The notes below the pieces were generated by a model. The model searched no databases. It saw nothing but the letters and a program-made list of their open reading frames with translations, and was not told where the DNA came from. This document shows, in pieces, positions 40,072-58,846 of a stretch of DNA of 64,000 bases. A program made the translations under genes and the position numbers. Each line of letters starts with the position of its first letter. The stretch's first letter is position 1. This stretch comes from Bacillota bacterium (GTDB taxonomy: Bacteria > Bacillota > Sulfobacillia > Sulfobacillales > Sulfobacillaceae), in contig JAIMBD010000009.1 in NCBI GenBank assembly GCA_023511625.1, positions 1 through 64,000 of the forward strand. The letters are read 5' to 3'.

Positions 40072-40725
40072 TTACGCCTTCATTTCGGCCGGGGTGTCGC
40101 GCCCCTCCTTGACAAAGTAAGCCAAGGCTTGCAGTTCGAGCATGAGGTCGATATTTTTCACGATCACCTCCGGGCGATCGGTCAAAATGGCGACGGGCGC
40201 GAAGTTCAGGATGGCGCGGACTCCGGCATCGGCCAGCCGCTCTGCCACGCTCCGGGCGGCATAGTCCGGCACCGTCAACACCGCCAAGGCGATCTGCCGC
40301 TCTTTGACCAACCGCTCGAGGTCGCGGACGTCCTCCACGCGCAGCGGCCCGATGGCCGTGCCGATGACTTGGGGATCGACGTCCACCACAGCCACCACCT
40401 CGGTGTCGCTGCGGTTGTTCTGGGTATAGCGCACCAACGCAGTACCGAGATGCCCCGCACCGACCACCATGACCCGGACCCCGCGGTCGATGCCGAGGAT
40501 CCGGCGAATCTGCCGCACCAGTGGCGCCACCTCGTAGCCGACGCCGCGGGTGCCAAAGGCGCCAAAATAGGCGAAGTCCTTGCGCACCTGCTCGGACGAA
40601 AACCCCGCCGCCTTTCCCAGCGCCACCGAGGTGATGCGCTCGGCATGGGTCAGTTCCAACACCCGAAGGTAGGCCGGCAGTCGGCGGATGGTGGTGTCTG
40701 GGATGCGACGCGCCCGCCCTACCAT
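40072..40725 (-). CDS. rex: Redox-sensing transcriptional repressor Rex
   Basis: Senses the NADH/NAD+ ratio and represses respiratory or fermentative genes when NADH is low. The 217 residues comprise a winged-helix domain (TTIRRLPAYLRVLELT, GFSSEQVRKDFAYFG) and a Rossmann domain with VMVVGAGHLGTALV and the C-terminal swapped helix NIDLMLELQALAYFV. It starts inside the stop of the prenyl synthase gene (ATGA), so the two are coupled. A sequence resembling a Rex operator lies in front of nuoA. Confidence 0.95.
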   Translation of the reverse strand: MVGRARRIPDTTIRRLPAYLRVLELTHAERITSVALGKAAGFSSEQVRKDFAYFGAFGTRGVGYEVAPLVRQIRRILGIDRGVRVMVVGAGHLGTALVRYTQNNRSDTEVVAVVDVDPQVIGTAIGPLRVEDVRDLERLVKERQIALAVLTVPDYAARSVAERLADAGVRAILNFAPVAILTDRPEVIVKNIDLMLELQALAYFVKEGRDTPAEMKA

Positions 40726-46576: not shown

Positions 46577-46879
46577 CTAACCCTTCAGCCGCGAGATCTC
46601 GTCGATATTCAGCCGATGACGGCGATGGTAGACCGACACGATTAGGGCCAGCCCAATGCCTACCTCCGCCGCCGCCGTGGCGATGATCAAAAACGCCATC
46701 ACCTGCCCGCTGAGGGCGTGGTGTTGGCGGGCGAAGGCCACAAAGGCCAACGCCGCTGCGTTCCACATCATCTCAGCCGCCATGAACATGATCAGCGGGT
46801 TGCGCCGCGTCAACACCCCAATGGCGCCCACCGCAAAGATGGCCACTGCCACCGCCACCGTCCACGTGGTTGCTGTCAC
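46577..46879 (-). CDS. nuoK: NADH-quinone oxidoreductase subunit K
   Basis: Small three-helix membrane subunit of 100 residues with the two channel glutamates in MFMAAEMMWNAA and ATAAAEVGIGLAL. GTG start behind GGGGGCAGGG, 22 bp after nuoJ. Confidence 0.95.
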   Translation of the reverse strand: MTATTWTVAVAVAIFAVGAIGVLTRRNPLIMFMAAEMMWNAAALAFVAFARQHHALSGQVMAFLIIATAAAEVGIGLALIVSVYHRRHRLNIDEISRLKG

Positions 46880-54694: not shown

Positions 54695-55218
54695 GCCCCT
54701 CGGGCCTCCCGCTTGATCTGAGCCTCTAGCTCCTTGTATTTAGGCGGCAGCCCCTGGGCGATCTTCTCCTGCAGTTTGAGGATCCCGTACATCAACGCTT
54801 CCGGGTTGGGCGGGCATCCGGGGATATAGACGTCCACCGGCACCACGTGGTCGACCCCTTGAATGATGGCGTAGTTGTCAAACACGCCCCCTGACGACGC
54901 GCACGCCCCCATGGAGATGACCCATTTCGGTTCCGGCATCTGCTCCCAGATGGTGCGCAGGACGGGCGCCATCTTTTGGGTGACGCGCCCCGCCACAATC
55001 ATCAGGTCCGCCTGGCGCGGCGAGGCACGGAACACCTCAGATCCAAAACGGGCCAAGTCGTAGCGCGAGTTGGTCACGCTCATCATCTCGATGGCGCAAC
55101 ACGCCAACCCGAACGTGGCCGGCCACAGCGACGACTTCTGCGCCCAGCGGGCCATCTTTTCTACTGTGGTCAGGAGGATGGACCGCTCTACCTCCCTTTG
55201 ATCGGTGCTCAATGCCAC
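54691..55218 (-). CDS. nuoB: NADH-quinone oxidoreductase subunit B
   Basis: Holds the terminal cluster N2 next to the quinone site. The 175 residues contain the adjacent-cysteine motif [19 protein letters not shown] and [13 protein letters not shown] 55218 is chosen because a GGGGGG run lies six bases upstream; it overlaps the end of nuoA by 10 bases. Frame starts further upstream would run deep into nuoA. Confidence 0.94.
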
Positions 55219-55562
55219 TGAAATCCCCCCCGTTTCCACAGGTAGCCGAAGGTCACCGCCACCACTGCCAAAAAGGGCAAGGCGTGCCAAAACCCGCTCC
55301 GCCCGAGATCGCGGAGGCTGGTGGCCCACGGGTACAAGGCCATCACCGCCACGTCGAAGATCATGAACAACATCGCCACCCGGTAAAACCGGACCGAAAA
55401 ATACCGCACGGGCGCTTCGGGCACGATGCCAGACTCGTAGGTCTCCCGTTTGAGGCCCCCGGGCGCGCGCGGCCCCAAGCGCTCCGAGGCGAAGGACATC
55501 GACAGGGCCACCAAGAGGGCCACCACCAAATAGACCAACAGCGCCTGATACTCCCCGATCAC
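55209..55562 (-). CDS. nuoA: NADH-quinone oxidoreductase subunit A
   Basis: Three-helix membrane subunit of 117 residues with the [30 protein letters not shown] region that forms the cytoplasmic loop and second helix. The GTG start has GGAGGGGG about seven bases upstream. It is the first nuo subunit gene; a small membrane-protein gene lies 136 bp upstream on the same strand. Confidence 0.95.
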
Positions 55563-55598
55563 GCCCGCACCCCCTCCATCGCCATCAGCCGCAGGAAC

Positions 55599-55616
55599 TT
55601 GTTCGCCCTTTCACAT
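55599..55616 (-). promoter_or_regulatory. Rex-operator-like sequence in the nuoA leader
   Basis: The 18-bp sequence TTGTTCG-CCCT-TTCACAT matches the Rex consensus TTGTGAA-n4-TTCACAA at 10 of 14 arm positions, with one half nearly perfect. It lies between the TACAAT −10 box (55653–55658) and the nuoA start, where a bound repressor would block transcription. rex is encoded in the same window. Confidence 0.4.
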
Positions 55617-55652
55617 TACCTTCCGCAACCCAGCTTCTGCTGTTTCACGCCT

Positions 55653-55658
55653 ATTGTA
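55653..55658 (-). promoter_or_regulatory. −10 element upstream of nuoA
   Basis: TACAAT on the minus strand (5/6), about 90 bases before the nuoA start. No clear −35 box is seen; GATTTC-type sequence lies at that distance. Confidence 0.4.
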
Positions 55659-55698
55659 TCCCAATGACTGGCGAAATCCTAGTCGGGGGACGGCCGCG

Positions 55699-55818
55699 TT
55701 ACAACGGCCGCTCGTGGGCATCCTCGCCGCCTTCTGGCTTAAGCCCGCGACTGACTAGCCAGGCCAAAAGAGCCGGCACCACCAGAAACCCGAAGAACAG
55801 GGTGACTGCCAGCGCCAC
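55699..55818 (-). CDS. 39-residue single-span membrane protein at the head of the nuo operon
   Basis: A very short frame from GTG 55818, with AAAGGAGGG suitably upstream, encodes a hydrophobic helix (about residues 2–22, ALAVTLFFGFLVVPALLAWL) followed by a charged tail rich in Glu, Arg and Lys. I do not recognise the family. The strong ribosome-binding site, the TTGCAG-17-TAGGAT promoter candidate upstream and the nuo genes 136 bp downstream argue that it is real and perhaps a small accessory or assembly factor. A CGGCCG…CGGCCG hairpin spans its end. Confidence 0.5.
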   Translation of the reverse strand: MALAVTLFFGFLVVPALLAWLVSRGLKPEGGEDAHERPL

Positions 55819-55867
55819 TGTCGCCTCCCTCCTTTCGCTTCCCTGCCCGTGGGCGACCTCGCCCATC

Positions 55868-55896
55868 ATCCTACCCCAGCCGTGTGGCCCCTGCAA
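55868..55896 (-). promoter_or_regulatory. Candidate promoter of the small membrane gene
   Basis: TTGCAG (55891–55896) and TAGGAT (55868–55873) on the minus strand are 17 bp apart, 50 bases before the GTG at 55818. It is divergent to and close to the plus-strand promoter at 55908. Confidence 0.4.
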
Positions 55897-55907
55897 CCGC
55901 CCGCCCC

Positions 55908-55936
55908 TTGGCCCCGGGACGCGCCTTCGGTATCAT
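55908..55936 (+). promoter_or_regulatory. Promoter of the unknown gene at 56009
   Basis: TTGGCC (55908–55913) and TATCAT (55931–55936) are exactly 17 bp apart, 4/6 and 5/6 to consensus, 72 bases before the ATG. Confidence 0.55.
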
Positions 55937-56008
55937 GGACGGCGTAGGCACCGAAGCCGACTCTGGGACTCTCACGCAATCAAGACCCCAGAGCGAGGGA
56001 GGCAGACG

Positions 56009-56728
56009 ATGGCCCCGACCGTCAAAATGCGCGTGACCGCCAGTGCCACCTTGGCCCAAGCCGCCCCCGGCGCCGCCCGCAATTACGACGTGGCCGGCGC
56101 AATGAACCGCTGGGGATGGGTGGTGCACGGCAACCCTCCGCCCTCCGGCGCCGACGACCTGCCCCTGCAGTGGCTGGTGACCACCCTCGACCACGCCCTC
56201 CGCCGCTATGTGACCGAAGGCGCCTCGGCGCCGCTCCGGATGTTGTTGCCCGAACTGTTGATTCACGTGTCTCGCCAATACCGCCAGATTTGGGGCCAGC
56301 GGTCGGTGTCTCCGGTAGCCAGCTTGGCCGTGGTCCGGGTCGAGGACGACCAAGTCGAGTACGGCGTGTTCGGGGAATGCTTCATCCTGGTCGAAGACGG
56401 GGTGTCCGGCAAGGAGTACCGGTTGGCCCCCACCGACACCACCCGCATCGCCGCCGACCAACGCCATCCGTTGTGGTTTTCTGCTTCGCGCGGCATCCTG
56501 CGTCCCAAAAGCCACGCCTTGTCTGTGATCTTGGCCTCGCTGGGCTTGGAGGCGGTTTGGTCGGCGACCCATGGCCCCGCCACTCCCCATGCCGTCCTGG
56601 CCGCCGTGCGCGCGGAGGGCCTGCACCCTTTGGTGGCGCGCCTCGTGTCCCGTTTCCCGGACCCAGAGCGCCGCCCAGCCGTCGCTTGCACCTACCTTAG
56701 GGTGGATCCGATTCCGACCCCCTGGTGA
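56009..56728 (+). CDS. Conserved-looking protein of unknown function
   Basis: A 239-residue soluble protein with no recognised domain. A central stretch (SVSPVASLAVVRVEDDQVEYGVFGECFILVEDG split over about residues 98–131) is faintly like the strand pair GDCR… of PP2C-type phosphatases, but the metal aspartates are not evident, so that link is weak. GAGGGAGG precedes the ATG 56009 and a good promoter lies upstream, so it is expressed on its own. Its 3' end overlaps the convergent whiA by 32 bases. Confidence 0.6.
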   Translation: MAPTVKMRVTASATLAQAAPGAARNYDVAGAMNRWGWVVHGNPPPSGADDLPLQWLVTTLDHALRRYVTEGASAPLRMLLPELLIHVSRQYRQIWGQRSVSPVASLAVVRVEDDQVEYGVFGECFILVEDGVSGKEYRLAPTDTTRIAADQRHPLWFSASRGILRPKSHALSVILASLGLEAVWSATHGPATPHAVLAAVRAEGLHPLVARLVSRFPDPERRPAVACTYLRVDPIPTPW

Positions 56729-57593
56729 TGGTGCCGACGGACGGCTGCCCGGAGTCCAACGCCCGCCGCAGCGCCTGCCGCATGCGGTGGTTGACGGCCG
56801 ACTTGGAACGCGGCGGGTCCAAGGCCAGCCCGATTTCCCGCAGCGACCAGTCGGGGTGTTGAATGCGCAAGGTCGCCACGGCCCGCACCCCCTCCGGCAG
56901 TTCCTCCCACTCTGGGCTTTCTCGCAAGCGTTGGAGCAGGTTGGCCTGATCCAACCCCGAGACCACGGCCCGGTGGAGATTGGCCGTCTCCGAGTTGACC
57001 AAGCGGTTGATGCGGTTGCGCATGGCCCGGAGCGCCTCGAGGTTCTCGAGCTTCAACACCGCCTCATGGGCACCCACCACAGTAAGGAACCGAATGATGG
57101 CGCGGCGACCCTTCAAATACAGGGCATAGCCGCCGCGGCGCGGCACCCACTTCCCCCGGATGCGCCATCGCGCCAAAACCGCCGCCAGCACCCGGCCCTC
57201 GTCGGCATTGGGGACCCACACCTCGAGATGGGAGCTGCGGTCGGGATCGGTCAGACTCCCGTGCGCTAAAAAGGCCCCCAGCAAAAACCCGTGAGGACAA
57301 GCTTCCGCTGCGCGCAGCGGGTCAAGCGGCGGCAGGTGCCGCCCTACGATCCGAAACGGCAGGCGACGCCGGCGATCGATGTCGAGACGGGGCTCCATCC
57401 CCAAGGCCCGCATCAGGCGATAGGCCCGGCGCGCCACCGCAGCGGAAGCCACGGCCAGCGACGGCGCCTGGGCTCGTCCCGCCAGCCACTGCCCCTTCAT
57501 CCCCCACCACTCCGCCGCCAGGCAGGCGCAGTCGGTCGGCAGCGGCTGCTGACTCAATCGGGCCCGCACTTGGCGCGCATAACTCCAATTCAT
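56697..57593 (-). CDS. whiA: WhiA sporulation/cell-division regulator
   Basis: DNA-binding protein of 298 residues. The N-terminal half is a degenerate LAGLIDADG-homing-endonuclease-like fold (GFLLGAFLAHGSLTDPDRSSHLEV) and the C-terminal half a helix-turn-helix (HPDWSLREIGLALDPPRSKSAVNHRM). The motif RINRLVNSETANL is diagnostic. ATG 57593 overlaps the yvcK stop (ATGA). It closes the conserved rapZ–yvcK–whiA run. Confidence 0.94.
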   Translation of the reverse strand: MNWSYARQVRARLSQQPLPTDCACLAAEWWGMKGQWLAGRAQAPSLAVASAAVARRAYRLMRALGMEPRLDIDRRRRLPFRIVGRHLPPLDPLRAAEACPHGFLLGAFLAHGSLTDPDRSSHLEVWVPNADEGRVLAAVLARWRIRGKWVPRRGGYALYLKGRRAIIRFLTVVGAHEAVLKLENLEALRAMRNRINRLVNSETANLHRAVVSGLDQANLLQRLRESPEWEELPEGVRAVATLRIQHPDWSLREIGLALDPPRSKSAVNHRMRQALRRALDSGQPSVGTITRGSESDPP

Positions 57594-58846
57594 CGGCGGC
57601 CTCGCTCTCTGAGCCGGCTCTCGAGCCACCACCCGTCCAGCCGGTGCCCCTCCGCCCAATGTGGCCGAAACCGCACCAGCACCTGCAACAAGGTGCGAGC
57701 CAACCGGTCCGGATCATGGCGCACCACCCCGTCCACCCGCGCCAAGTCGGCGGCGATGAGGGCAGGGCGCCGGGGAAAGTTGCCGGCCCAAGCCACCGGT
57801 TCTGCCCCCTCCTGGCGGTACCGCTCCAGCACCGCCGGGGGCAAGGGCGTGCGGTGCACCAGCACCACATCGACCACCGGCTGCCCCACGTGTTCCTCCA
57901 CGGCCCGCACGTGGTCCCATACGGAGTATCCGGCCGTCTCCCCCGGCTGGGTCATGAGGTTGGCGACCAAGACCCGCAAGGCGCGACTTTGGGCGATGGC
58001 CTCGCCGATCGGCCGCACCAACAGGTTGGGAATGACGGAAGTATAGAGGCTCCCTGGCCCCAACACGATGAGGTCGGCCTCGCGGATGGCCGCCACCGCT
58101 TCGGCCAGCGGCGTGGCGTCTTCCGGTTCTAGCCACACCCGTTCGATTGGAGCTGGAGCCCGCCCGATCTCGCTCTCCCCGCGCAGAAGGCGGCCGTCGA
58201 CTAATCGGGCCACCAGCTCCACCCGCTCTAGCGTGGCCGGCAACACCTTGCCTCGCACAGCCAAGACCCGACTCGACTCCTTAAGTCCAGTGACGAAGTC
58301 GCCCGTGGTCTGTTCCATCGCTGCCAGGAAGAGGTTGCCGAACGAGTGGCCAGCCAACGCCCCGCTCTCAAACCGGTACTGAAACAACTCCGCCATCAAG
58401 GGCTCGGTATCGGCCAGGGCCACCATGCAGTTGCGCAAGTCGCCCGGCGGCAGCATCCCAAGGTCGTCCCGCAGACGTCCCGAACTGCCTCCGTCGTCGG
58501 CTACCGTCACGATGGCGGTAAGGTTGGCGGTATACTCCTTCAGTCCGCGCAACACCACTGGCATGCCGGTCCCACCGCCCAACGCCACCACCTTGGGCCC
58601 TCGCATCAAGGAGCGGCGCGACACGATCCACCCGGCCCACGGACCGGCCCCCACCCCCTCTGCCAGGGACCGCCACAATCCCCATGCCCCACCTGCCACC
58701 ACCGCAAGACTAGTCGCGGCCAAGAGGAGGACCGGTGGGCGCCACCGGAAGGCCAGGACGGCAGCGGCTCCAATCCCCATCCACCCTGCGGCCACCAGCG
58801 CCGCGTAGCGCTTCAACCGGAGGCCCGGGACCAGATACCGCCACAT
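57590..58846 (-). CDS. yvcK: YvcK/GlmR-type gluconeogenesis factor
   Basis: CofD-fold protein of 418 residues that binds UDP-sugars and tunes carbon flow to cell-wall precursors in relatives. It carries ALGGGTGMPVVLRGLK, TVADDGGSSGRLR, GDLRNCMVAL and GPGSLYTSVIPNLLV. Unlike Bacillus YvcK it has two N-terminal membrane helices (about residues 13–33 and 38–57), as in other high-GC Firmicutes. It sits 14 bp after rapZ and overlaps whiA by 4 bases. Confidence 0.92.
   Translation of the reverse strand: MWRYLVPGLRLKRYAALVAAGWMGIGAAAVLAFRWRPPVLLLAATSLAVVAGGAWGLWRSLAEGVGAGPWAGWIVSRRSLMRGPKVVALGGGTGMPVVLRGLKEYTANLTAIVTVADDGGSSGRLRDDLGMLPPGDLRNCMVALADTEPLMAELFQYRFESGALAGHSFGNLFLAAMEQTTGDFVTGLKESSRVLAVRGKVLPATLERVELVARLVDGRLLRGESEIGRAPAPIERVWLEPEDATPLAEAVAAIREADLIVLGPGSLYTSVIPNLLVRPIGEAIAQSRALRVLVANLMTQPGETAGYSVWDHVRAVEEHVGQPVVDVVLVHRTPLPPAVLERYRQEGAEPVAWAGNFPRRPALIAADLARVDGVVRHDPDRLARTLLQVLVRFRPHWAEGHRLDGWWLESRLRERGRR

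Follow-up and report, generated by a model that had tools for sequence, protein, structure and literature searches.

A probable microgene for a single-span membrane protein beside the nuo operon of a Sulfobacillaceae genome

Our analysis makes it likely that a 39-codon frame upstream of nuoA encodes a translated, single-span inner-membrane microprotein that is maintained by selection and confined to one genus, and that this microgene is a neighbour of the nuo operon and not its leader gene. The latter point follows from the position of nuoA's own control elements, a promoter-like box and Rex-like operator, downstream of the microgene. The window analysed was the first 64,000 nt of contig JAIMBD010000009.1, and its relevant features are collected in Table 1. 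At the level of annotation, this is the case of what is very probably a real gene, by sequence criteria, that is too short for many gene callers, and comparative data do not bear out the function that its place beside a famous operon would suggest.

Table 1. Features of the window that bear on the microgene and on the control of nuoA
Feature	Position	Strand	Basis or remark
nuoA	55209..55562	-	Pfam PF00507 (Oxidored_q4), E 6.1e-25
Rex-like operator ATGTGAAAGGGCGAACAA, upstream of nuoA	55599..55616	-	10/14 consensus positions
-10-like TACAAT of nuoA	55653..55658	-	within GGGATACAATA block common to G001, downstream of microgene
39-codon microgene, putative single-span membrane microprotein	55699..55818	-	translation; ortholog L078:3302-3418
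Shine-Dalgarno AAGGAGG	55828..55834	-	end 9 nt 5' of microgene GTG
Tentative weak -10-like TAGGAT	55868..55873	-	by eye; TTGCAG 17 nt upstream (N17)
div239, divergent 239-codon gene, remotely PP2C-like	56009..56728	+	77% identical in G001
whiA, usual upstream neighbour of nuoA in relatives	56697..57659	-	Pfam HTH_WhiA, E 4.9e-22
rex	40072-40725	-	Put_DNA-bind_N and CoA_binding domains

Coding evidence and distribution of the microgene

The sequence-only reading had described a tiny frame for a single-span membrane protein, preceded by an excellent Shine-Dalgarno sequence and lying ahead of nuoA on the same strand, and each of these elements was recovered. The translation, (M)ALAVTLFFGFLVVPALLAWLVSRGLKPEGGEDAHERPL, begins at a GTG codon, has no internal stops and consists of one hydrophobic helix with a charged tail, nuoA lies 136 nt further on, and the Kyte-Doolittle maximum over a 19-residue span is 2.44. 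The window holds 744 start codons that are followed by 30-50 codons to a stop; once a ribosome site of >=6 nt and a hydropathy maximum of >=1.9 are both required, only two are left, so the combination exceeds what chance would give. The microgene is one, and the other frame (46577-46690) reads like what we take to be the tail of NuoK.

Conservation of the frame was assessed against G001, the sole congener among the 61 genomes searched (the window's own included). The window genome amounts to 2.59 Mb in 40 contigs, against about 3.5 Mb for this congener. A single-protein search of the 61 genomes gave one further full-length relative, located in G001 on contig JAIMAE010000007.1 of a Bacillota metagenome-assembled genome, and a contig scan for the microprotein returned this one locus. 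Protein identity between the two is 78%, and the alignment has a gap of exactly two codons. The 37 aligned codons contain 31 base differences in 111 sites, of which 9, 3 and 19 fall on codon positions 1, 2 and 3. Leaving out the start codon, pN/pS is 0.22 (0.12 for nuoA) and dN/dS is about 0.10, the dS of about 1.6 being near saturation for this pair. When the same changes were placed at random, none of 20,000 placements reached the observed 28 identical residues of 37. DNA identity is 72% within the frame (82/114), 38% upstream of it (54/141, the 141 aligned bases lying in 150 alignment columns) and 31/65 downstream. The G001 ortholog starts with ATG, and an in-frame TGA four codons upstream bounds that start. 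Stops interrupt four of the other five frames of the microgene DNA; the fifth, on the reverse strand, has none, and its ratio is 0.39, the claimed frame giving 0.23. The frame kept in the congener and the strong excess of synonymous changes uphold the proposal of a true coding gene, and the substitution pattern indicates that the microprotein is under purifying selection. This conservation rests on one pair, since only two genomes carry the microgene. For the same reason a chance, untranslated open frame might be suspected; however, the codon-position pattern, the dN/dS of about 0.1, the two-codon gap and the drop in similarity outside the frame make that scarcely credible.

With both microproteins used as a profile on 42 genomes of the order, full-length matches were confined to the two congeners, G000 and G001, the other 40 genomes gave none, and the next E-value (0.001) belonged to part of a 301-codon frame. 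Searches of 61 genomes, of 398 genomes drawn evenly across the phylum (by profile) and of these 42 yielded just partial matches beyond the two carriers, mostly within longer frames, although a strongly diverged microprotein located elsewhere in other genomes could escape the searches used. Upstream of nuoA, a microgene-like ORF was found in none of 42 other relatives (32 of the same family, seven of the same order and three of the same class); 38 of these loci were read in one pass, the 36 with whiA in reach in another, and G024, G027, G033 and, once more, the three class genomes in a third, one of the three having found no place in the first pass. At one locus (L097) a small hydrophobic ORF precedes nuoA, and it was judged by eye to be unrelated.

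Plasmid records gave no match to the microprotein, and neither NCBIfam (up to E 10) nor PHROGs gave one for the window protein; the G001 ortholog reached E 0.078 in PHROGs. For both orthologs, Pfam up to E 10 returned DUF6338 alone (E 0.0014 and 0.025; 18.7 and 14.6 bits against a cut-off of 26.5). These sub-threshold matches cover the same profile stretch in both proteins and were set aside as hydrophobic-helix matches, behind which there may be a remote relation. Solved structures gave seven matches, the best to an antenna helix at E 0.15, and these were rejected as chance. On present data the microgene appears to be confined to one genus.

Gene order and promoter signals upstream of nuoA

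The stretch from the end of whiA to nuoA measures 78-330 nt in 31 of 36 relatives and 571-2,166 nt in the remaining five. The gaps of 0.6-2.2 kb (L085, L091, L097, L100 and L111; 5/36, congeners apart) mark a recurrent insertion place; G034, G035, G039 and G040 have gaps of this size, and that of G003 holds a 409-codon frame. In the genus of the window, div239 occupies this interval and the microgene lies on its nuo side in both species. Among 40 relatives, G001 alone has div239 at the whiA-nuoA locus; a strong match was found in only two of 34 family genomes and some match at E<=1 in 20 of them. Pfam up to E 10 gave no match for div239 itself, and its predicted structure has a mean pLDDT of 46.6. 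It may be a degenerate PP2C-like protein, because PP2C_2 is matched, though below its cut-off, by a weak relative in G021 (L120:1015-1911), the best of the remaining family matches at E 3.4e-7. The simplest account would be an insertion in the genus ancestor, which brought a block of div239 and the microgene into the interval that separates whiA from the nuo control block.

The arrangement beyond the microgene differs between the two species. In G001 a flippase-like gene of 388 codons begins 38 nt past the microgene stop on the same strand, and this gene plus 650 nt separate the microgene from nuoA, which lies 1,855 nt after it. The blocks GGGATACAATA and ATGTGAAANNGCGAACAA are common to both species in the final stretch before nuoA, and in G001 this shared control block adjoins nuoA, after the flippase-like gene. 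In both species, then, microgene and nuoA have a promoter-like box and Rex-like operator between them, which would place the microgene outside the regulated nuo unit. Since the gap in the window genome is only 136 nt and the scan listed no terminator between the two genes, read-through into nuo is possible there.

The microgene had also been credited with a promoter candidate of its own, and this was not sustained. A scan of the minus strand from 55100 to 56200 for sigma-70-type consensus sites returned none, and by eye only the weak TTGCAG-N17-TAGGAT could be seen, with 7/12 consensus positions and 49 nt from the start; the G001 ortholog is preceded by TTGCGC-N18-TAGGAT, 68 nt from its start. 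To judge by motif, the TACAAT near nuoA is the better -10-like box.

Candidate functions and alternative explanations

An AlphaFold model of the microprotein, made from a two-row alignment and with a mean pLDDT of 76.1, shows a single helix at residues 2-25, the tail being less certain. The tail carries a basic SRGLKP stretch, and under the established positive-inside rule it would lie in the cytoplasm, with the N-terminus outside. Fewer than 50 codons, one transmembrane helix and purifying selection, as judged by computation, fit the broad kind of single-span bacterial microproteins. Being under selection, the protein probably does something at the membrane, where its helix might pack against a larger membrane protein and serve as a small accessory or regulator. 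A candidate for its functional partner, slightly favoured over others, would be div239, since among neighbours outside nuo that both genomes retain it is the nearest.

The microprotein was compared with known small subunits. Like it, subunit IIa of B-type (ba3) oxidases is short and single-span, as part of a respiratory enzyme; the microprotein differs in that it has no family match and its immediate neighbours are not oxidase genes. Pfam and NCBIfam, searched up to E 10, gave no match to a curated family of the CydX, CcoQ or KdpF type; models for CydX and CcoQ are presumably held there, and a KdpF model was listed in the NCBIfam search. In size, in its one hydrophobic helix and in the position of its gene near a respiratory operon, the microprotein resembles CydX, the 37-aa subunit of cytochrome bd oxidase. 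However, CydX belongs to the cydABX operon and has >300 homologues (PMC4325964), whereas the microgene lacks a curated-family match above the cut-off, lies upstream of the nuoA control block and occurs in one genus. Another likeness is to NdhP and NdhQ of cyanobacterial NDH-1, which are likewise single-span peptides of <5 kDa, associated with a relative of complex I. NdhP was demonstrated in the purified complex (PMC4131877), whereas the microgene is not conserved with nuo.

The sequence-only reading had placed the microgene at the head of the nuo operon and raised the possibility of an accessory subunit of complex I. Neither proposal found support, given the 1,855 nt and the additional gene in G001, the separate control block of nuoA, and the presence of the ORF upstream of nuoA in none of the 42 other relatives. 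A lineage-specific subunit, comparable to NdhP or CydX in their respective complexes, is unlikely. In the window the microgene does precede nuoA by 136 nt on one strand, it has the right size and one helix, and it stays on the nuo side of div239 in both species, and single-span peptides of <5 kDa do occur in relatives of complex I, as NdhP and NdhQ illustrate (PMC4131877). Against this stand the intervening gene in G001, the absence from 42 of 42 other relatives and the nuoA control block that follows the microgene; no conservation beside nuo in relatives with complex I was found among the 42 relatives and the congener. Encoded outside the nuo operon, the microprotein may still have a role in complex I. 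A version in which a newly arisen, genus-specific microsubunit was recruited to the NADH dehydrogenase after landing at the head of nuo seems improbable to us. Among the papers searched, none joined nuoA, a microprotein and complex I, and we make no wider claim about the literature.

The flippase-like gene of G001 offers another partner, with the microgene as first gene of an operon serving the transporter, and the transporter lost from the window genome. The spacing of 38 nt on one strand favours such an operon, and although Pfam gave no match for the 388-codon gene itself, its relative in G023 matches Polysacc_synt below the cut-off. Yet the window genome has no flippase-like gene at this locus and keeps the microgene frame intact, its sole match to the G001 gene is 35% identical and on another contig, and among 30 flippase-like loci only G001's own has a microgene-like ORF within 700 nt upstream. 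We regard this partnership as unlikely. The window lineage, whose genome is the smaller, may have lost genes, and two genomes alone leave both a gain of the flippase-like gene in G001 and its loss in the window genome possible. Finally, a short ORF with a good ribosome site upstream of an operon could be a leader peptide, acting in cis through its translation on the gene that follows. This is very unlikely here, as the amino-acid sequence is conserved, tail included, although the gene that follows is not the same in the two genomes, and the nuo control block common to both comes only later. The preferred reading thus remains a selected membrane microprotein whose gene neighbours nuo.

A Rex-like operator directly upstream of nuoA

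A by-product of our analysis is the indication of a Rex-like operator that is conserved in this order and sits immediately ahead of nuoA in the nuo operon. Of 41 loci, 36 carry the pattern TGTGAA-N5-[GT]NAC no more than 140 nt from nuoA; G002, G035 and the three class genomes lack it there. In 380,284 nt of DNA further upstream in the relatives (both strands together) it never occurs; this contrast is not a probability, because the loci are related and the pattern was picked after viewing the sequences. When sites were scored for the full consensus TTGTGAANNNNTTCACAA, the best one in 200 nt was equalled by <=5% of first-order random sequences at 26 of the 41 loci. Among the 15 others, several have a top-scoring site that is not the one adjoining nuoA, and the window's own site, with 10/14 positions, lies at the 5% border. 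This consensus, together with Rex repression of nuoA1-N1 in Streptomyces avermitilis, is described in PMC5355995. In many loci of the order the Rex-like operator lies a few bases past a TATAAT box, and the window also has a rex gene, for whose product nuo is a possible target.
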